A DNA stretch of 64,000 bases, taken from NCBI RefSeq assembly GCF_032930845.1, contig NZ_CP136758.1, positions 2,743,001 through 2,807,000 of the forward strand, in the 5' to 3' direction. Positions within the stretch are counted from its first letter, which is position 1. The number at the start of each line of letters is the position of its first letter. The translations under genes were made by a program, and so were the position numbers. Origin of the DNA: Parvularcula sp. LCG005 (GTDB lineage Bacteria; Pseudomonadota; Alphaproteobacteria; Caulobacterales; Parvularculaceae). This document shows, piece by piece, positions 53,024 to 63,639 of this stretch. The notes under the pieces are model-generated. The model was given only the letters and a program-made list of their open reading frames with translations. It was not told the origin of the DNA and searched no databases.

Positions 53024-53051
53024 AAAAAAATGGCAGGCCTCAGGCCGCCAT
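53024..53051 (-). terminator. Intrinsic terminator at the end of the ilv-leu superoperon
   Basis: Minus strand ATGGCGGCC-TGA-GGCCtGCCAT folds into a nine-pair stem with one bulged T, then seven T. The 5' arm is the last codons of leuB; the loop is its stop codon. Confidence 0.85.
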
Positions 53052-54086
53052 CAACTTTTCAACGACCGCGTCCGCGACCTGTTGGGTCGATGATGTCCCA
53101 CCAAGATCGGATGTACGGACGTGGTCTCGGATGACCGCTTCTGCCGCGGCCTCAATCCGGTCGGCGGCATCGGGTGCACCGGCGGAAAACCGCAATAGCA
53201 TGGCCATCGACATGATCGCACCAATCGGATTCGCCTTGCCCTTGCCGGCAATATCAGGCGCCGACCCGTGGATGGGCTCGTAAAGACCGCGTGTGCCCTC
53301 GCCCAGGGATGCAGACCCCAACAGGCCGATTGACCCGGCGATGACCGAAGCTTCATCCGAGAGGATGTCGCCAAAAAGGTTCTCCGTCACGACAACGTCA
53401 AAACGGGAGGGTCGTTGAATAAGGTGCATGGCCATGGCATCGACGAGCACATGGTCAACGGCGACTTCCGGGTAATCTTTGGCAATCCGGTTCACCGTCG
53501 ACCGCCACAGGCGAGAGCTGGCAAGCACGTTGGCCTTGTCCACTGAGGTCAGGCGACCGGACCGGCCTTTTGCCGCTTCAAAGGCGATGCGTGTCACCCG
53601 TTCGACCTCAGCGTCCGTATAAACGAGGCTGTCCGTGGCGCGCTCAAGACCTTCTTCCCGATCACCAAAATACAGACCGCCAGTCAGCTCACGGACAATC
53701 AGGATATCTGTCCCGCGAACGCGGTCAGACTTCAGGGGCGACATCTCTGCCAGGCAGTCGAGCAGTTTCAGCGGGCGCAGATTGGCAAAGACATTCAGCT
53801 CCTTGCGGATCCGCAGAAGGCCCTGTTCAGGGCGAATGGGCGTCATATCCCATTTGGGACCGCCAACGGCCCCAAGGAAAATGGCATCAGCCGAAAGACA
53901 GGCATCGAGCGTCCCGGCAGGCAACGGATCGCCGTGTCGATCAATGGCGATACCGCCAAAATCATGACTTTCCGTATGCAGTGCAATGCCTTCAGCCGCG
54001 CAGGCGGCCTCGAGAACCTTGACGGCAGCCTCGGTGACTTCAGGGCCAATCCCGTCACCAGGTAGCAGGACGACATTCAAACTCAT
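53040..54086 (-). CDS. leuB: 3-isopropylmalate dehydrogenase
   Basis: NAD-dependent oxidative decarboxylation of 3-isopropylmalate, third step of leucine synthesis. 348 residues with LLPGDGIGPEV, GAVGGPKWD, RKELNVFANLRP, the substrate Tyr in ELTGGLYFGDRE, and EPIHGSAPDIAGKGKANPIG. Overlaps leuD by four bases. It is the last gene of the superoperon. Confidence 0.97.
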   Translation of the reverse strand: MSLNVVLLPGDGIGPEVTEAAVKVLEAACAAEGIALHTESHDFGGIAIDRHGDPLPAGTLDACLSADAIFLGAVGGPKWDMTPIRPEQGLLRIRKELNVFANLRPLKLLDCLAEMSPLKSDRVRGTDILIVRELTGGLYFGDREEGLERATDSLVYTDAEVERVTRIAFEAAKGRSGRLTSVDKANVLASSRLWRSTVNRIAKDYPEVAVDHVLVDAMAMHLIQRPSRFDVVVTENLFGDILSDEASVIAGSIGLLGSASLGEGTRGLYEPIHGSAPDIAGKGKANPIGAIMSMAMLLRFSAGAPDAADRIEAAAEAVIRDHVRTSDLGGTSSTQQVADAVVEKLMAA

Positions 54087-54664
54087 CGGCCGGTCCTTTT
54101 CTCAAATTTTTCGATCTCAGGCACCACTGCGACCAGCATGCCGAGCGGGTCGGTACCTTCCAGCATGCAACGACGCGCGAAGGGGTCGGTCGCGAACGAC
54201 ACGACATGATTGCCAAAGCGGAGCTCCTCAGCTTCGAGGTCCACCGACATTTCCCGGCCAGGGGATGCCATCAGCTCGGCATGAATATCGGCGGGCACTT
54301 CTACCGTCAGCACACCATTCTTCAGCGCGTTGGATCGAAAGATATCACCGAAACTCGTGCTGACGATGACCTTCAGGCCCAGCGCAGACAGCGCCCACGG
54401 CGCGTGTTCACGCGAAGAGCCGCAGCCAAAATTATCGCCAGCAACCAGAATTTTCTGCTGATCGAAGTCGACCGCGCGAAAGGGATTGTCAGCCTTTGGC
54501 CGACCTTCACCGTCGAAACGCCAGTCGTAAAAGGCGGATTCCCCCAGACCGTCCTTGCTGGTCGTGGTCAGAAAGCGGGCAGGAATAATCTGGTCCGTAT
54601 CGATATCACGTTGGGGCAATGTCAGCGTGCGCGATGTGAGGACCGTGAACGGCTCGTTGCTCAT
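54083..54664 (-). CDS. leuD: 3-isopropylmalate dehydratase small subunit
   Basis: Swivelling subunit of isopropylmalate isomerase, working with LeuC. 193 residues: [13 protein letters not shown] near the N-terminus, [18 protein letters not shown] and [19 protein letters not shown] overlaps at both ends with leuC and leuB show tight coupling. Confidence 0.96.
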
Positions 54665-56070
54665 GCAGCCTCCGGCTTTGTCAGATAGGGACGAGGGTCG
54701 GCAATTCGGCCCTCAATGGCGGATGCGGCCGCAGTTGCCGGTGACGCGAGTACGGTGCGAACACCCTCACCCTGCCGCCCTTTGAAGTTGCGGTTCGACG
54801 TCGATACGACGAGTTCCCCAGGCTGTCCGCGATCGCCATTCATGGCAATGCACATCGAGCAGCCTGGCTCACGCCATTCAGCCCCGGCGGCGATGAACAC
54901 CTCGTGCAGGCCTTCCGCCTCGGCATCCTTCTTCACCTGCTCAGACCCCGGTACGATCAAAGCAACAAGACCGGGCGCCACCTTGTGACCGCGCAGCACA
55001 TCAGCGGCGACCCTGAGATCCGACAGCCGCCCGTTCGTACACGATCCGACAAACACACGGTCCACCTTGACGTCCGTCAGTGGTGTGTCCTGATTCATCC
55101 CCATGTAGAGAAGCGCTTGAGCGTCATCATCATTATGGGCGTGCGGGATCATCTGACTGATCCGTGTTCCTGCATCCGGCGACACACCAAAGGTGACCAT
55201 CGGCTCGATCTGCGACACGTCGACAACGACTTCACGATCAAAAACCGCATCATCATCGGTATACAGCGTTTTCCAGTCAGCGACGGCGGCATCAAAGTCG
55301 GCCGGTGCACCAGCTCGTCCACGAAGATAGTCGAACGTGACATCGTCAGGCGCGACCATACCTGCGCGTGCGCCGCCCTCGATAGACAGGTTGCACAGGG
55401 TCATGCGCCCTTCCATTTCCAGGGCTTCGATCGCGGGACCGCAATATTCAATAACATGACCCGCCGCACCGCCCGCGCCGATCTGGGCAATCATGGCCAG
55501 TGCGAGGTCCTTTGCGCTGACCCCCGGCGTCGCATCGCCTTCAAATCGAATGCGCATGGTTTTCGGCCGGCGCTGGAACAGCGACTGCGTTGCGAGGACG
55601 TGGCCGACTTCGGTGGTGCCGATCCCGAAAGCCAGGGCGCCAAACGCACCGTGGGTGGAGGTGTGGCTGTCGCCGCAGACAATGACAATGCCCGGCTGGG
55701 TACGGCCCATTTCAGGGCCGACCATATGCACGATGCCGCGGCGCTGATCCGCAAAATTCAGCAGTTCAATGCCGTGCGCCGCACAATTGCGCTCCAGTGT
55801 CTCCACCTGGCTGCGTGCAGCATCCGTTGCGAAGACACGACTGCCATCCGCTGCCACCGGCGTGGTTGGCGTTGAATGATCCATGGTCGCCAGGGTCAGA
55901 TCAGGACGCCGCACCTTGAGGCCGCGATCATCAAGCACCTTGAACGCCTGCGGGCTGGTCACTTCGTGAACAAGATGCAGGCCGACATGAAGGATCGCCG
56001 GACGATCCTCCATCTCAGGCGAAATGACATTCCGCTCCCAGACTTTTTCAAACAGGGTCTTGCCGGCCAT
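54661..56070 (-). CDS. leuC: 3-isopropylmalate dehydratase large subunit
   Basis: Iron-sulfur aconitase-family subunit, 2- to 3-isopropylmalate. 469 residues: [40 protein letters not shown] with one cluster cysteine, [13 protein letters not shown] and [13 protein letters not shown] with the other two. Its ATG overlaps the leuA stop by one base (TAATG). Confidence 0.97.
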
Positions 56071-57245
56071 TATTCGGTCTCCACGATCACGCGGTTAGAC
56101 GCCCCGGCCACCAGACTGCGCAGATCCTCATCCGTCACTTCTTTTTTCTCATCGGCAAGGCGTTTGAATGCCTCGAAAATGGAAGGAATATAGTCCGGGT
56201 TCACATCATGACCGAGCTCTTCCAGCCGCGCCATCATGGCGTGCTTGCCGGAATGTTTGCCGAGGACGAGAGACGAGTTCGGCGCGCCGATATCCTCTGG
56301 CCGCATGATCTCATAGGTCTCACGGTTCGCCAGCATGCCGTGCTGGTGAATCCCCGCCTCATGCGCAAACGCATTGCGTCCGACGATCGCCTTGTTGCGC
56401 TGAACTTTCTCACCGGTCACATCTTCGAGCGTGCGGCTGGCCTTGTAGAGCTTGGTCGTGTCCACGAGGCTTTCGACGCCGTAGAAGTCCTTACGCGTAT
56501 GAAGGGCCATGACGACCTCTTCCATCGCCGCGTTACCGGCGCGCTCACCAATGCCGTTGATCGTGCACTCAACCTGGCGCACGCCCGCGCGAATAGCGGC
56601 GAGGGAGTTGGCAACCCCCAGCCCCAGATCATCATGACAGTGGCAGGAGAAGATAACCTCTGGCCCGACCTTGGCATTTTCAATCAGATAGCTGAACACG
56701 TCATAGATTTCATCAGGCGTTATGTAGCCGACCGTATCCGGTACGTTCAGCGTCTGCGCCCCGGCGTCGGCCGCCACGGTCATGCACTCGGCAAGGAAAT
56801 CCTTCTCCGTCCGCATGGCGTCTTCGGCCGAGAATTCCACGTCGTCGAAAATGGCCCGAGCATAACGCACGCCATGATCGATCGCCTTGACGATCTCATC
56901 ACGGCCCATCTTCAACTTGAACTCACGGTGCAGCGGCGAGGTGCCGATAAAGACGTGGGCTCGTTTGCGGCGCGCTGGCTCCAGCGCGCGGGCGGCGGCA
57001 TCGATATCGGGCTCACGGACACGGGCCAGCGAACAGATGCGGGCACCCTCGGTCTCCTCGGCAATGGCGCGAACAGCCTCAAGGTCGCCGGGCGATGCCG
57101 CGGCGAACCCGGCTTCGATAACGTCCACTTTAAGAGCGGCGAGGGCTTTCGCCATCCGCAGCTTGCCCTTCATGGTCATGGAAAAGCCGGGGCTCTGTTC
57201 CCCATCACGCAAAGTGGTGTCGAAAATTCGAACGTAATCAGACAT
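56070..57245 (-). CDS. leuA: 2-isopropylmalate synthase lacking the C-terminal regulatory domain
   Basis: Condenses acetyl-CoA and 2-ketoisovalerate, committing step to leucine. The catalytic TIM barrel is complete: [50 protein letters not shown] (metal HxH), [21 protein letters not shown] and [12 protein letters not shown]. The protein ends at 391 residues ([15 protein letters not shown]), whereas ordinary LeuA is about 510-560 with a LeuA-dimer domain that binds leucine. The stop abuts leuC, so nothing was cut off by an obvious frameshift. Short LeuA-like enzymes exist; homocitrate or citramalate synthase activity is a less likely alternative given the operon. An upstream leader ORF overlaps its ribosome site. 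Confidence 0.9.
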
Positions 57246-57247
57246 GA

Positions 57248-57319
57248 TCAGCACTCCCCGCCAGACCGCTTGAGAAGAAGCAGTGCAACCTTCGGCGATG
57301 AATAATCCCGGTGCAGCAT
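57248..57319 (-). CDS. Putative leucine leader peptide upstream of leuA
   Basis: A 23-codon ORF starting MLHRDYSSPKVALLLLKRSG. AGGAG lies six bases before its ATG, one of the best ribosome sites in the region. Codons 13-16 are four successive Leu codons (CTG CTT CTT CTC), like the Leu run of enterobacterial leuL. The TGA stop is two bases before the leuA ATG and the leuA Shine-Dalgarno GGGGAG lies inside codons 21-22. The Leu codons CTTCTC can pair with GGGGAG (six pairs, two G-T, 12-base loop). No T-run terminator is present, so control would be translational. No protein homologue is known to me. Confidence 0.6.
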   Translation of the reverse strand: MLHRDYSSPKVALLLLKRSGGEC

Positions 57320-57330
57320 AATTTTCTCCT

Positions 57331-58608
57331 CTATTGGTTCTGGTTGGCCGTTAATGGCGCCACGGAAAGGCCCGCAGCACGAAGCGAGTCGATAATACGG
57401 TCCATTTGCAGGCCATCGCTGGCCTCGACCGAAATATCAATATACGTCGATTTTGCCGGTAAGTCGTTGAAAATTCTATGGTAAGAAATATCAATGACGT
57501 TTCCGCCGGCAGCCGAAATGGCTTCTGAAACCGTTGTCAGCTGGCCGGGTATGTCAATCAGTTCAATACGCAACCGGGCCAGTCGCCGCTGGCGCGCCAG
57601 ATCACGCATCAGGATGGATGACAGGAGCCGGGTGTCGATATTGCCCCCGCAGATGATCGATCCGACCTTCCGACCACGGAACAGCGATGGATGGGCCAGC
57701 ACGGCGGCAAGACCTGCCGCGCCTGCGCCCTCCGCCAGCGTCTTCTGGATCGTCAGCAACATGGACAGGGCGCTTTCCAGATTGGGTTCTTCCACGGTGA
57801 CGATTTCATCAACGAGTTGAGAGACCACCTGGCGCGTCAATTGTCCGGGTTCGCGGACCGCGATCCCCTCAGCGAGGGTCATGCCGCCACAGGGGCGATG
57901 CCCCCCCTTCACAGCATTCAGCATGCCCGGGAACAGGGCCGCCTGTACGCCGATGATCCGGATGTTTGGATTGATCCGTTTGGCGACAATGGCCGTGCCT
58001 GAGATCAGACCGCCGCCACCAATTGGCACGATCAACGTATCAAGATCTGGCACCGTGGCGAGCATTTCCGCGGCAACCGTGCCCTGACCAGCACAGACAT
58101 AGGGGTCGTCAAACGGATGAACGAAAGTCAGCCCTTCCTCCGAACAGATCTTGTGGGCAGCGGCATCGGCTTCGCCGTAATCAGCGCCGGTCAACACGAC
58201 CCGTGCGCCGAGCGCACGCGTCTGTTCCACTTTCACCATGGGGGTGAATTGCGGCATGACAATTGTCGCATCAATGCCGAGCAGCGCCGCGTGCCTGGCG
58301 ACACCCTGGGCGTGGTTGCCGGCTGACGCCGCGATTACACCGACCGCGCGTTCCTGCTCACTCAGGCTGAGCAGCTTGGCCAAGGCACCGCGTTCTTTGA
58401 AACTTCCCGTGTACTGAAAATTATCAAATTTCAGGAACAGGTCGCATCCCGTCGCTGCGGACAATTTCGGCGAGTGGATACACGGCGTCTCTACAATCCT
58501 GGACCAGGCGGGGTCCCGTTTGGAAACGATATCGTCAAAGACGCCTTCGTCCAGCCCGAGGATTGCCTCGGGCGCCGCTACCGGTGCGACCTCAGATGAC
58601 AGTGGCAT
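57331..58608 (-). CDS. ilvA: Threonine ammonia-lyase (threonine dehydratase) with one ACT domain
   Basis: PLP-dependent conversion of threonine to 2-ketobutyrate, entry to isoleucine. The ATG at 58608 (AAGGA eight bases upstream) gives 425 residues. PLP lysine in YTGSFKERGA near residue 69, then SAGNHAQGVA and the phosphate loop VPIGGGGLISG. The C-terminal 75 residues form a single ACT-like domain (LIDIPGQLTTVSEAISAAGG). The E. coli biosynthetic enzyme has two such domains, so this is the shorter type. Starts inside the end of the ALS small-subunit gene (17-base overlap). Confidence 0.92.
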   Translation of the reverse strand: MPLSSEVAPVAAPEAILGLDEGVFDDIVSKRDPAWSRIVETPCIHSPKLSAATGCDLFLKFDNFQYTGSFKERGALAKLLSLSEQERAVGVIAASAGNHAQGVARHAALLGIDATIVMPQFTPMVKVEQTRALGARVVLTGADYGEADAAAHKICSEEGLTFVHPFDDPYVCAGQGTVAAEMLATVPDLDTLIVPIGGGGLISGTAIVAKRINPNIRIIGVQAALFPGMLNAVKGGHRPCGGMTLAEGIAVREPGQLTRQVVSQLVDEIVTVEEPNLESALSMLLTIQKTLAEGAGAAGLAAVLAHPSLFRGRKVGSIICGGNIDTRLLSSILMRDLARQRRLARLRIELIDIPGQLTTVSEAISAAGGNVIDISYHRIFNDLPAKSTYIDISVEASDGLQMDRIIDSLRAAGLSVAPLTANQNQ

Positions 58609-58882
58609 GGGGTATTTCCTTCCACTGACTTGGCTGTTCGCGACTGCGCCGCTCCAGACGGACATAACGGACATTGACCAGCCGTTCGATCTGCAGTCGG
58701 AGCGTTTCGATAGAGCGCGTTGAGCCGTAGGGAGAGACCTGCACTCGCGTCGTCACACCGCCTTCGATTTCTTCCACCAGAAGGCTGCGCACATACCAGC
58801 CGCGCTGCTCGATAATCGTCCAGATCCGGCGCAGCGTGCCGTTCACGTCGTCACTTTCGATGGTCAGGGTCTCGATGGTCAT
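58592..58882 (-). CDS. Acetolactate synthase small subunit, short IlvM-like form
   Basis: A 96-residue single-ACT regulatory subunit: ETLTIESDDVNGTLRRIWTI with the conserved N-G-T-L-x-R ligand turn, then IEQRGWYVRSLLVEEIEGG and the strand TRVQVSP. The usual alphaproteobacterial IlvH is about 160-190 residues with a second domain; this one ends after the ACT domain plus a basic tail, like enterobacterial IlvM. It overlaps ilvB by four bases and ilvA by 17, consistent with coupled translation in the ilvB-ilvM-ilvA order. Confidence 0.85.
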   Translation of the reverse strand: MTIETLTIESDDVNGTLRRIWTIIEQRGWYVRSLLVEEIEGGVTTRVQVSPYGSTRSIETLRLQIERLVNVRYVRLERRSREQPSQWKEIPHATVI

Positions 58883-60576
58883 TTTGGTGCATCCATCATG
58901 TCAGAATTCGATTTACCGGCGGGAACGATCGGCCAGACATTTTCAGCCGGATCGATCACCACATGCATCAGGATAGGGCCTTCCGCCGCCAACAGCCGTT
59001 CAATCGCGGCGGGCACCTCGTTCGGGCTTTTGATCGTGAAGCCTTCGATACCGAAAGCCTGCGCCACCGCTGCAAAGTCAGGATTGTCCGACAGATCCAC
59101 TTCAGAGAAGTTACCATCAAAGAACAGCTCCTGCCACTGACGAACCATCCCAAGGCGGGAGTTATTCAGAACAATGGCTTTCAGCGGTATGCCATAGCGG
59201 CGCATGGTCGCCAGCTCCTGGATGTTCATCATCACGCCGCCGTCACCGCTGATTGAGACGACTACGGAATCGGGCTCTGCCACCTTCGCGCCAATGGCGG
59301 TCGGCAAGCCAAATCCCATGGATCCGAGGCCACCGGACGTAATATGCGCCTGAGGACGGGAAAAGCGGCAATGCTGGGCGACCCACATCTGGTGCTGGCC
59401 CACATCGGACACTGCCACAAACTTGTCGCCCGCCTGCTCAGACAGCTCTTTCAGGAGCGCGGGCGCATAAATCCCTTCACCCGGCGCATCGTAGCGGATC
59501 GGGTTCTCATCGCGCCAGGCGAGGCACTGCTCCTGCCACGGACCGATAGAGTTGGGCTCGGGCCGGAACGCTTCCAGCATGGGTTTGATTTCGCACGACA
59601 CAGCGACATGGGCGTGGCGCAGCTTTGAAATTTCGGAGGCATCGCGGTCAAAATGCACAACGCGGGCATGGGGGGCAAAAGTATCCAGCTTGCCCGTGGC
59701 CCGGTCATCAAACCGGGCGCCGACAACGATCAGCAAATCGCAGTCCTGAACAGCGAGGTTGGCCTGCTTGGTGCCGTGCATGCCCAGCATGCCTAGCAGT
59801 TGCGGATGGCCAGTAGGCAGGACGCCCAGCCCCTGCAGTGTACAGACGGCCGGAATTTTGGACCGCTCGACTAGCTTTCGCACCGCATCAACCGCACCGG
59901 CGCGCACAATGCCACCGCCCAGATAGAAGAGGGGCTTGCTGGCATCACGAACAGCCGCTTCGGCGCGGCGCAGGCCGTCTTCGTCGAGCGTGTTGTCCGT
60001 ATGCTCTACCCGCGCAATGACGTCAGCCTGCGCACCAGCCACCTGCACATCCTTGGGGATGTCAATGACAACGGGACCCGGCCGGCCGCTCTCAGCGATT
60101 TCGATGGCTTCGGCGATGATGCGGGGAATATCGTTTGGATCACGGACGATATAGGAATGCTTCACGATCGGCATGGTGATACCGAAGGTGTCAATTTCCT
60201 GAAAAGCATCCGTACCCATCACAGGCTGGGCGACCTGCCCCGTGATGGCAACCATGGGCACGGAATCCATGAACGCATCGGCAATGCCGGTGACAAGATT
60301 GGTCGCGCCCGGGCCGGAGGTGGCAAAGCACACCCCCGCCCTGCGGGTCATGCGCCCCACCGCCGCAGCGGCGAAGGCGCATGCCTGTTCGTGCCGACAC
60401 AGAATGTGTCGCAGACCAGACCCCGGAATGGCATCATAGACGGGCATGATGGCGCCGCCGGGATAGCCAAACACCGTATCCACCCCCTGGGCCAGCAACG
60501 AGTCCACGACAAGCGACGCACCGGTTTTCGGGCGAGCGACGGTCTGTTGATCAAGCTTGGGGGCGGTGGTGTTCAT
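58879..60576 (-). CDS. ilvB: Acetolactate synthase large (catalytic) subunit
   Basis: ThDP-dependent acetohydroxyacid synthase: pyruvate to 2-acetolactate, or with 2-ketobutyrate to acetohydroxybutyrate. 565 residues. Starts MNTTAPKLDQQTVARPKTGA; VFGYPGGAIMPVYDAI and RHEQACAFAAAAVGRMTRRA contain the ThDP glutamate; TSGPGATNLVTGIADA, GMLGMHGTKQANLAV, and the ThDP/Mg motif SGDGGVMMNIQELATMRRYG with NNSRLGMVRQWQ follow. The C-terminal half ends DPAENVWPIVPAGKSNSDMM. Lies 20 bases after ilvC. Confidence 0.96.
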   Translation of the reverse strand: MNTTAPKLDQQTVARPKTGASLVVDSLLAQGVDTVFGYPGGAIMPVYDAIPGSGLRHILCRHEQACAFAAAAVGRMTRRAGVCFATSGPGATNLVTGIADAFMDSVPMVAITGQVAQPVMGTDAFQEIDTFGITMPIVKHSYIVRDPNDIPRIIAEAIEIAESGRPGPVVIDIPKDVQVAGAQADVIARVEHTDNTLDEDGLRRAEAAVRDASKPLFYLGGGIVRAGAVDAVRKLVERSKIPAVCTLQGLGVLPTGHPQLLGMLGMHGTKQANLAVQDCDLLIVVGARFDDRATGKLDTFAPHARVVHFDRDASEISKLRHAHVAVSCEIKPMLEAFRPEPNSIGPWQEQCLAWRDENPIRYDAPGEGIYAPALLKELSEQAGDKFVAVSDVGQHQMWVAQHCRFSRPQAHITSGGLGSMGFGLPTAIGAKVAEPDSVVVSISGDGGVMMNIQELATMRRYGIPLKAIVLNNSRLGMVRQWQELFFDGNFSEVDLSDNPDFAAVAQAFGIEGFTIKSPNEVPAAIERLLAAEGPILMHVVIDPAENVWPIVPAGKSNSDMMDAPK

Positions 60577-60596: not shown

Positions 60597-61625
60597 TCAT
60601 TTGTCTGCGTTGTTGGCGCCAGGCTGCAGCCAGCTCATCCGGCTGCGGAGTTTCTGGCCCACTTCTTCCATCTCGTGGTCCAGATCCTGATGCATCAGCT
60701 GGTCATAGCGGGCTTTGCCAGCCTGGTTTTCGAGGATCCATTCGCGGGCGAATGTCCCGTCCTGAATATCCTTGAGGACAGCGCGCATCGCTTCGCGGGA
60801 GGTCTCGTTGACCACGCGAGGACCCGAAACCAGATCGCCATAGGCGGCTGTTTCGGAGATGAACTCATGCATTTTCGCGATGCCGCCTTCATGCAGCAGA
60901 TCCACGATCAGCTTCAGCTCGTGCAGGCACTCATAATAGGCCAACTCGGGCGCGTAGCCGGCTTCCGTCAGGGTTTCGAAGCCCATTTTCACAAGCTCGG
61001 TCACGCCGCCGCACAGGACAGCCTGTTCACCGAACAGGTCAGTTTCGGTCTCGTCGCGGAAGGTCGTTTCAAAGATCGCAGCGGCGGTACCGCCAATGCC
61101 GTCCGCGTAGGCGAGCGCGCGATCAGAGGCTTTGCGAGACGCGTCCTGATAGACGGCGAACAGACAGGGCACGCCCCGGCCTTTTTCATACTCACGACGG
61201 ACGAGGTCACCGGGACCCTTGGGCGCCACCATGACGACGTCGACATTCTTTGGGGGCTTCACGCGGCCGTAAAGGACAGAAAAACCGTGGGCGAACAGAA
61301 CCGTATCGCCATCTTTCAGGTTTGGCAGAACGTCGTTCTGGAAGATGCTCTCATGCTGCATGTCCGGCGCGGTGATCGCGATCAGCTGCGCTTCCTTGGC
61401 GGCCTGGTCAGGCGGCAGAACGCGGAAGCCATCGGCCTCGGCCTTGGCTTCCGATGGTCCGCCGCGACGTGCACCGATGATAACATCGAGACCGGAGTCC
61501 CGCAGGTTGCGGGCGTGGGAACGCCCCTGGCTGCCAAAGCCGATGATGGCAATTGTGGTGCCGTCAAAGGTGCCCGGCTTCACGTCATCCTTGGTGAAGA
61601 CGCGCATTTCTTCCTTGGTACTCAT
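60597..61625 (-). CDS. ilvC: Ketol-acid reductoisomerase
   Basis: NADPH- and Mg-dependent rearrangement and reduction of acetolactate or acetohydroxybutyrate. 342 residues, class I length. Rossmann site [40 protein letters not shown]; metal ligands in [19 protein letters not shown] and [16 protein letters not shown]. The nucleotide-binding loop after GARRG is followed by [12 protein letters not shown]. Overlaps ilvD by four bases. Confidence 0.96.
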
Positions 61626-63295
61626 GATCTTCCTTCCGTCACAGTGGTCGTTGCGCCCTTGCTCGCCGAACCGACGAGAGCTGCGTATTTATCAAAAGCG
61701 CCGCCCATATAACGGGGTGGACGCGGGGTGATTTCTTTGGCGCGGGCATCCCAGTCGATATCCGCGTCGATGGTCCGTGCTTCCGCATCGATCCGCATAC
61801 GGTCGCCATCTTTCAGCAGGCCGATCGGGCCGCCGAGCGCCGCCTCAGGCGCCACGTGACCGATCACAAAGCCGTGACTGGCGCCAGAGAACCGGCCATC
61901 GGTGATGAGCGCGACCTTGCCGGCCAGGCCCTGCCCGGCAATGGCCGCCGTGGTCGCCAGCATTTCGCGCATGCCAGGACCGCCTTTGGGTCCTTCATAG
62001 CGGATCACGACAACATGGCCTTCCTTGATCTCGCCACGACCGACGGCAGCGAAGGCATCTTCTTCGCATTCAAAAACGCGGGCCGTGCCCTCGAAAACGC
62101 CATCGGAATAGCCAGCGGTTTTCAGGACGGCACCTTCAGGGGCCACCTGGCCGTACAGGACGCGCAGGCCGCCCGTCTTTTTCAGCGGGTTGTCCAGTGG
62201 ACGGACCACTTTCTGATCTGGCGCTTCTTCCGCCAGGTCGATCTCTTCGAACAGGGTCCGGCCTGAGACGGTGGGTGCATCCACGATCAGGCCTGCTTCG
62301 CGCAGGCGTTTGCCGAACAGACGGCAGCCCCCGGCCTTGTACAGATCAACGGCCACATAGCGGCCACCTGGCTTCATGTCCGCAAACACGGGTGCGATGC
62401 GCGACAGCTCATCAAAAATATCGATAGAGAACGGTACGCCCGCCTCTGTCGCGATTGCGGCGAGGTGCAGGACGGCATTGGTGGAACCGCCAGAAGCAAC
62501 GACTGAAACGGCGGCATTTCGCAGGGAGGTTTCGGTCACGAAATGGCGCGAATCCGGCCCTTCGAGCGCCCGTTTCGCCGCGAGCATGCCGCAACGATGG
62601 GCCTCACCCGCCTTCGCTTCATCCGTGGCCGGTGGATCGCCCGCGCCCAACGGCGCCAGGCCGAGGAATGCCAGGGCCATGGCCATCGTATTGGCCGTGA
62701 ACTGACCACCACAGGCGCCGGCGCCGGGGCAGGCGTGGCGCTCAACCGCGTCCAGTTCACTATCACCGATCTGGCCTTGGGAGTGCGCACCGACTGCTTC
62801 GAATACGTCCTGAATGGTGACGTCCTTGTCGTTCAGGCAGCCGGGCGCGATGGTCCCGCCGTAAAAAATGACGCCCGGGATATCCATCCGAGACAGGGCC
62901 ATGGCGGCGGCTGGCAGGGTCTTGTCACAGCCAACCAGAATGACCGCGGCATCAAGCGCATGGCCGCGCACAGCCAACTCGATCGAGTCCGCGATGACCT
63001 CGCGCGACATCAAAGATGCCCGCATTCCTTCATGGCCCATGGTAATGCCGTCGGAGACGACGATGGTCCCAAATTCGACCGGCACACCGCCGCCTTCGCG
63101 CACGCCCTCGACAACAGGCGCGGCCAGGTCACGCAGGTGCATGTTGCACGGCGTGACCGAAGAATAGGTGTTGATCACCGCGACCATGGGCTTGTCGAAA
63201 TCCTCATCCGACATGCCGGTTGCCCGCAACATTGCTCTCGCCGCTGCCCGTGAGGGTCCTTTGGTGATGGCGTCGCTACGTTTTTGTCGGGTCAT
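61622..63295 (-). CDS. ilvD: Dihydroxy-acid dehydratase
   Basis: Iron-sulfur dehydratase giving 2-ketoisovalerate and 2-keto-3-methylvalerate. 557 residues. [16 protein letters not shown] and [40 protein letters not shown] carry the three cluster cysteines; [20 protein letters not shown] is the substrate-binding C-terminal block. First structural gene of the ilv-leu superoperon; its ATG lies 34 bases after an attenuator hairpin. Confidence 0.96.
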
Positions 63296-63328: not shown

Positions 63329-63356
63329 AAAAAAAAAGCTCCCTTTCGGGAGCTTT
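63329..63356 (-). terminator. Attenuator terminator in the ilvD leader
   Basis: Minus strand AAAGCTCCC-GAAA-GGGAGCTTT followed by a nine-T run (shared with the stem end), located after the leader ORF and before ilvD. Its 5' arm GCTCCCG is exactly complementary to CGGGAGC at 63389-63395 in the leader, giving an alternative antiterminator. Confidence 0.85.
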
Positions 63357-63377
63357 GCCTCGGCGCTGCGTATGCGT

Positions 63378-63500
63378 TTACCGATGCCGCTCCCGCGGGG
63401 ATATGAAGTCAATAAGGAGTACGAGACCGACCACGAGCCGAGCCGCGACCCGCGCGAGCGGGACGTTGACGAGGTTCGCTAGGACAGTCGCGTTTACCAT
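63378..63500 (-). CDS. Branched-chain amino acid leader peptide (ilvL-like)
   Basis: A 40-residue ORF starting MVNATVLANLVNVPLARVAA and continuing RLVVGLVLLIDFISPRERHR. It contains 8 Val, 7 Leu and 2 Ile, with a dense run VVGLVLLI at residues 23-30, the hallmark of ilv operon control peptides. Codons 36-38 hold the antiterminator arm CGGGAGC; a ribosome at the TAA (63378-63380) would mask it, while one stalled at the Val/Leu/Ile run would not. A small hairpin CCCGC-TCGC-GCGGG at 63449-63462 could be the pause structure. GGATCAG before the ATG is only a fair ribosome site. Confidence 0.8.
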   Translation of the reverse strand: MVNATVLANLVNVPLARVAARLVVGLVLLIDFISPRERHR

Positions 63501-63639
63501 CTGATCCAATTCCGAAAAAACGTGCGAGCGAGGCCCGCGTGCAGGTCCGCTACCATAACGTCGCAGGGCACGCAACCACCAAAAGCCATCTTATGCTGAG
63601 TTGCGCGCGCTGTGCGCCGTTTTCTGTCATTGCGCCAGA

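Follow-up and report, generated by a model that had tools for sequence, protein, structure and literature searches.

The ilvL leader of Escherichia coli combines a leader peptide rich in branched-chain residues with a choice between an antiterminator and a terminator, and AHAS II (ilvG-ilvM) is encoded downstream. Such attenuators in proteobacteria are reportedly covered mainly by the comparative study of Vitreschak et al. 2004, and the class described here was possibly predicted before. Attenuation of ilvGMEDA is a listed case (PMC1183508). Attenuation is also reported for ilvBN of Caulobacter crescentus (PMC4117421, on Tarleton et al. 1994), where the leader carries Ile/Val codons together with a rho-independent terminator. 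In actinobacteria, a short V/L/I-rich ORF is found ahead of a terminator-like hairpin before the ilv genes, as at ilvB; in the ilvB leader of Streptomyces coelicolor, control-codon substitution was without effect (PMC1262725). A limited literature search yielded no papers about the Parvularcula genus and none about ilv attenuation in Xanthomonadales.

The window, i.e., the whole 64,000-nt stretch of Parvularcula DNA that was analyzed, contains an ilv–leu operon headed by ilvD. The sequence upstream of ilvD most probably represents a classical ribosome-mediated transcription attenuator of this operon (probability about 0.94). The mechanism is a textbook one; its strong conservation across much of the order is noted here. 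The anatomy, conservation, covariation, codon bias, and alternative folds underlying this reading were computed in the present work. The elements of the leader region are as follows:

63547–63575, minus strand: candidate promoter TTGCGT-N17-TAGCGG (tentative, from cross-species comparison), with a predicted start near 63540
63378–63500, minus strand: leader peptide ORF, 40 codons, 17 of them Val/Leu/Ile (similar peptide in 40/40 family loci; chance test)
63411–63434, minus strand: control codon run VVGLVLLI, codons 23–30 (conserved V/L-L-L-I codons; synonymous codon bias)
63389–63395, minus strand: arm 2, CGGGAGC, the putative antiterminator 5' arm, within leader codons 36–38 (fully complementary to arm 3; position conserved)
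63347–63353, minus strand: arm 3, GCTCCCG, common to the antiterminator and the terminator (pairing, folding)
63329–63356, minus strand: intrinsic terminator with a 9-bp stem, a GAAA loop, and nine T (stem covariation AAA/TTT versus CCC/GGG)

The leader ORF (minus strand, 63500–63378) encodes MVNATVLANLVNVPLARVAARLVVGLVLLIDFISPRERHR and ends with the stop codon TAA at 63380–63378. The 40-residue frame with its 17 branched-chain residues and the VVGLVLLI run, all described in the original prediction, was found in the sequence, and it is rich in codons for the products of the operon itself (Val, Leu, and Ile). The Shine–Dalgarno-like sequence at its start codon is weak by inspection. The terminator hairpin AAAGCTCCC-GAAA-GGGAGCTTT occupies 63356–63335, with the nine T at 63337–63329, exactly where a perfect hairpin with nine T had been reported before ilvD; the T-run is 33 nt from ilvD. 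An intrinsic terminator is thus located between the leader ORF and the first structural gene. The complementarity of CGGGAGC and GCTCCCG, claimed for the last leader codons, is perfect.

Sequences of the TTGC..-N17/18-TA.. type are similarly placed in most genus members, and TTGTTT-N17/18-TAAGC. is found in sister genera. A scan with the E. coli sigma-70 consensus gave no promoter match, and cross-species comparison is the sole source of the candidate. The predicted leader RNA would tentatively be ~210 nt long; the ~170 bases given in the original prediction would have to be revised, since the candidate promoter (63575–63547) lies further upstream. A second terminator-like hairpin with a T-run was observed just upstream of the leader ORF (63538–63524, minus strand). 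It may be a gltB terminator, but it would overlap the proposed transcription start, and no counterpart of this site was seen by eye in relatives.

We infer transcription, translation, stalling, termination, and read-through to proceed as follows. RNA polymerase would start near 63540, and a ribosome would translate the Val/Leu/Ile-rich peptide from the leader RNA. Under a shortage of charged Val-, Leu-, or Ile-tRNA, this ribosome would stall within the VVGLVLLI run and leave arm 2 free; arm 2 would then pair with arm 3, allowing read-through into the genes from ilvD to leuB. With an ample supply of the amino acids, it would instead be the ribosome that reaches the stop codon and covers arm 2; arm 3 would pair with arm 4, and the resulting hairpin with nine U would end transcription.

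The folding calculations are consistent with this scheme. RNA from 63398 to 63347 folds as an antiterminator (−23.5 kcal/mol) with the inner extension UCGGU/GCCGA, while RNA from 63376 to 63329, from which arm 2 is left out, folds as the terminator. The predicted fold is therefore the antiterminator with arm 2 free and the terminator with arm 2 masked, the two being mutually exclusive through the 5' arm of the terminator. Measured from the first base of the last control codon, arm 2 of the window begins 18 nt downstream; the stop codon is completed 11 nt after arm 2 ends. This spacing would allow a stalled ribosome to free arm 2 and a terminating ribosome to mask it, and it fits the earlier claim about the position of the stop. 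Two details of this geometry count against the attenuator reading, as does the weak Shine–Dalgarno-like sequence. The distance from the end of arm 2 to that of the stop codon is 20 nt in sister genera, where masking by a terminating ribosome would be marginal. In this species, codon 33 of the leader is an extra Ile near arm 2, and a ribosome stalled there would mask this arm.

The comparison covered the sequence upstream of 114 ilvD genes from the order. The leader together with the terminator was found in all 40 loci of Parvularculaceae; for three other families the counts are 9/9, 14/18, and 37/47 loci. These loci are related, and the counts are not independent. In the second of these three families the leader alone is present in 17 of the 18 loci, and in the third the N-terminus of ilvD is recognizably different in nine of the ten loci without the element. 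The element is also absent upstream of three ilvD paralogues with ~50% identity. The nearest named matches to the window locus are those of P. oceani, P. dongshanensis, and P. mediterranea. In Lysobacterales, the leader was detected in 13/13 named loci where ilvD is not preceded by leuB and in 0/20 named loci where leuB is directly upstream, which places the element at the operon head. Two arrangements can be noted in this group: leuCDB-ilvD without a leader before ilvD (L063-L083, L088, L092, L100, L101, L111) and ilvD-first operons with a leader (L084-L086, L090, L096, L099, L104-L110). The same kind of control would thus act on ilvD-led operons, at the operon head only, in a large part of the order as well as in Lysobacterales.

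In the alignment of the 40 family loci, invariance within the control region falls mostly on the second-position T of Val, Leu, and Ile codons, as expected for coding constraint. Conservation of these codons in relatives, put forward earlier as a check, was confirmed ahead of orthologous ilvD genes. Codon choice in attenuator leaders sets their sensitivity (PMC1183508). CTG is rare in the leaders, accounting for 32 of 271 Leu codons, while the ilvD reading frames at these loci use it for 487 of 1363 (P = 2e-16); ATT is favored among the Ile codons (P = 4e-9), and GTA codons are abundant. The window leader has no CTG among its seven Leu codons (P = 0.004).

The terminator stem covaries at 0.272 versus 0.076 in shuffled alignments (0/500 shuffles as good), with paired changes from AAA/TTT in the Parvularcula genus to CCC/GGG in sister genera. 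Within the family, antiterminator covariation is not above that of shuffles; the arms are nearly invariant and pair in 88% of cells, and covariation is uninformative here because the arms hardly vary. At the register fixed by the stop codon, arms 2 and 3 pair in 403 of 477 cells, a modest excess (19/2000 shuffles as good). A permutation test over four families and Lysobacterales gave a mean of −15.4 kcal/mol for the duplex of each locus's own arms versus −14.0 when the arms were permuted over all loci and −14.7 within families; none of 1000 permutations was as good, overall or within families. As for the arm complementarity with compensatory changes by which the prediction was to be checked, the complementarity is conserved and the own pairing outperforms every permutation; the compensatory changes are those of the terminator stem, the antiterminator arms being too invariant within the family to covary. 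Taken with the conservation and the ribosome geometry, these results support the claimed similarity to the logic of E. coli ilvL. In sister genera (L006, L017, L019, and others), the terminator lies between two complementary sequences, ACGGACC ahead of it and GGTCCGT immediately behind it by the ilvD start; this is possibly an extra helix enclosing the terminator.

Other explanations of the region can be weighed against these data. The hairpin might be a constitutive or partial terminator between gltB and ilvD that sets a fixed basal level, with an ilvD promoter just downstream and a non-functional ORF. The terminator itself is indeed strong; however, the ORF composition, the codon bias, and the complement in arm 2 are conserved with it in four families and in Lysobacterales, just 33 nt are available between the T-run and ilvD in the window, and the element is missing where ilvD is operon-internal, all of which makes such a terminator very improbable. 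Chance formation of the pair can also be assessed: when the 344-nt gltB–ilvD intergenic region was dinucleotide-shuffled 3000 times, a V/L/I-dense ORF (8 or more V/L/I among 10 residues) appeared twice, and never in combination with a hairpin–T-run. On both strands of the 64-kb window, the ilvD leader is the sole pair of this kind.

Slightly less probable still is an RNA-only or protein-mediated attenuator (a riboswitch, a T-box, or an RNA-binding protein), to which the peptide would be incidental. The region does fold better than its shuffles (z −2.2), but the invariant coding columns are second positions of Val, Leu, and Ile codons, and no Rfam leader or riboswitch family was found at the gathering score. 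Neither the gathering nor the permissive thresholds revealed a relevant Rfam family, and none of the leader families (Leu_leader, Phe_leader, and others) could be assigned at the gathering threshold; the best sub-threshold match, Phe_leader (21.1 bits versus 55 needed, E = 0.39), is itself an attenuator. Rho-dependent or translation-coupled control through the leader ORF, as proposed for the terminator-less leader ORFs of actinobacterial cys operons (PMC1262725), would not need the hairpin, whereas nearly all loci have an intrinsic terminator with a covarying stem, and we consider this explanation the least credible of those discussed. Ribosome-mediated attenuation remains the preferred reading.

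The genes downstream of the attenuator are listed below:

61622–63295, minus strand: ilvD, dihydroxy-acid dehydratase, the first operon gene (TIGR00110 above cut-off)
60597–61625, minus strand: ilvC, ketol-acid reductoisomerase (profile match)
58879–60576, minus strand: acetolactate synthase large subunit of the AHAS II (ilvG) type (best model acetolactate synthase 2 catalytic subunit, above cut-off)
58592–58882, minus strand: small ACT-domain subunit, ilvM-like, 96 aa (below curated cut-offs; ACT_5 above cut-off)
57331–58674, minus strand: ilvA, threonine ammonia-lyase with an ACT-like domain, start codon uncertain (profile and domain matches)
56070–57254, minus strand: leuA, 2-isopropylmalate synthase without the LeuA_dimer regulatory domain (profile and domain matches)
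54661–56070, minus strand: leuC (profile match)
54083–54664, minus strand: leuD (profile match)
53040–54086, minus strand: leuB (profile match)
53029–53052, minus strand: terminator-like site at the leuB end, the likely operon end (terminator-like sequence)

All the genes in the order ilvD-ilvC-ilvG-ilvM-ilvA-leuA-leuC-leuD-leuB belong to branched-chain amino acid synthesis. Several neighbors overlap, and the widest gap is 76 nt (ilvA–leuA). Strong minus-strand terminator-like sites are present before ilvD and at the leuB end. This arrangement agrees with, without proving, a single putative transcript of about ten kilobases carrying all nine genes, and hence with the earlier proposal that the attenuator controls the whole operon. 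The result is a well-supported regulatory prediction for a nine-gene ilv–leu operon in a little-studied genus.

A distinctive feature of the operon is its LeuA protein (394 aa), which contains only the HMGL-like and HCS_D2 domains. The genome as a whole has no LeuA_dimer domain (PF08502), while the same search finds it in 14/14 control genomes. Of ten genus members searched, nine gave no PF08502 match. The remaining one (G006) encodes a stand-alone 171-aa protein matching LeuA_dimer (L199:1336-1851, minus strand) near an obg-like gene, and its own LeuA lacks this domain. Within the family, the LeuA open frames span 395–470 aa in this genus versus 519–597 aa in sister genera, not counting one fragment from a contig end, and the sister genera keep the domain. 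Given this genus-wide loss, leucine control may depend mostly on the attenuator. That it took over leucine control in the genus, with end-product control exerted mainly via stalling at the leader Leu codons, is a tentative and rather doubtful suggestion; attenuation would then compensate for the lost feedback inhibition of LeuA. If true, this would be a testable case of gene control replacing enzyme feedback.

Like the E. coli ilvGMEDA operon with its ilvL leader, the locus has a V/L/I-rich leader peptide, a predicted choice between antiterminator and terminator, and ilvG-ilvM downstream. Unlike ilvGMEDA, the operon is led by ilvD and includes the leu genes; the peptide here is 40 aa in length and has no Rfam leader match, and arm 2 is located within the leader ORF. 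The actinobacterial ilvB region shares the short V/L/I-rich ORF followed by a terminator-like hairpin and ilv genes, whereas its ORF overlaps the hairpin (PMC1262725). By description rather than by homology, the locus can also be likened to the ilvBN leader of C. crescentus, which as described in PMC4117421 likewise controls acetolactate synthase genes in a Caulobacterales-type alphaproteobacterium; that leader heads ilvBN, whereas the one described here heads an ilvD-led ten-kilobase ilv–leu operon.
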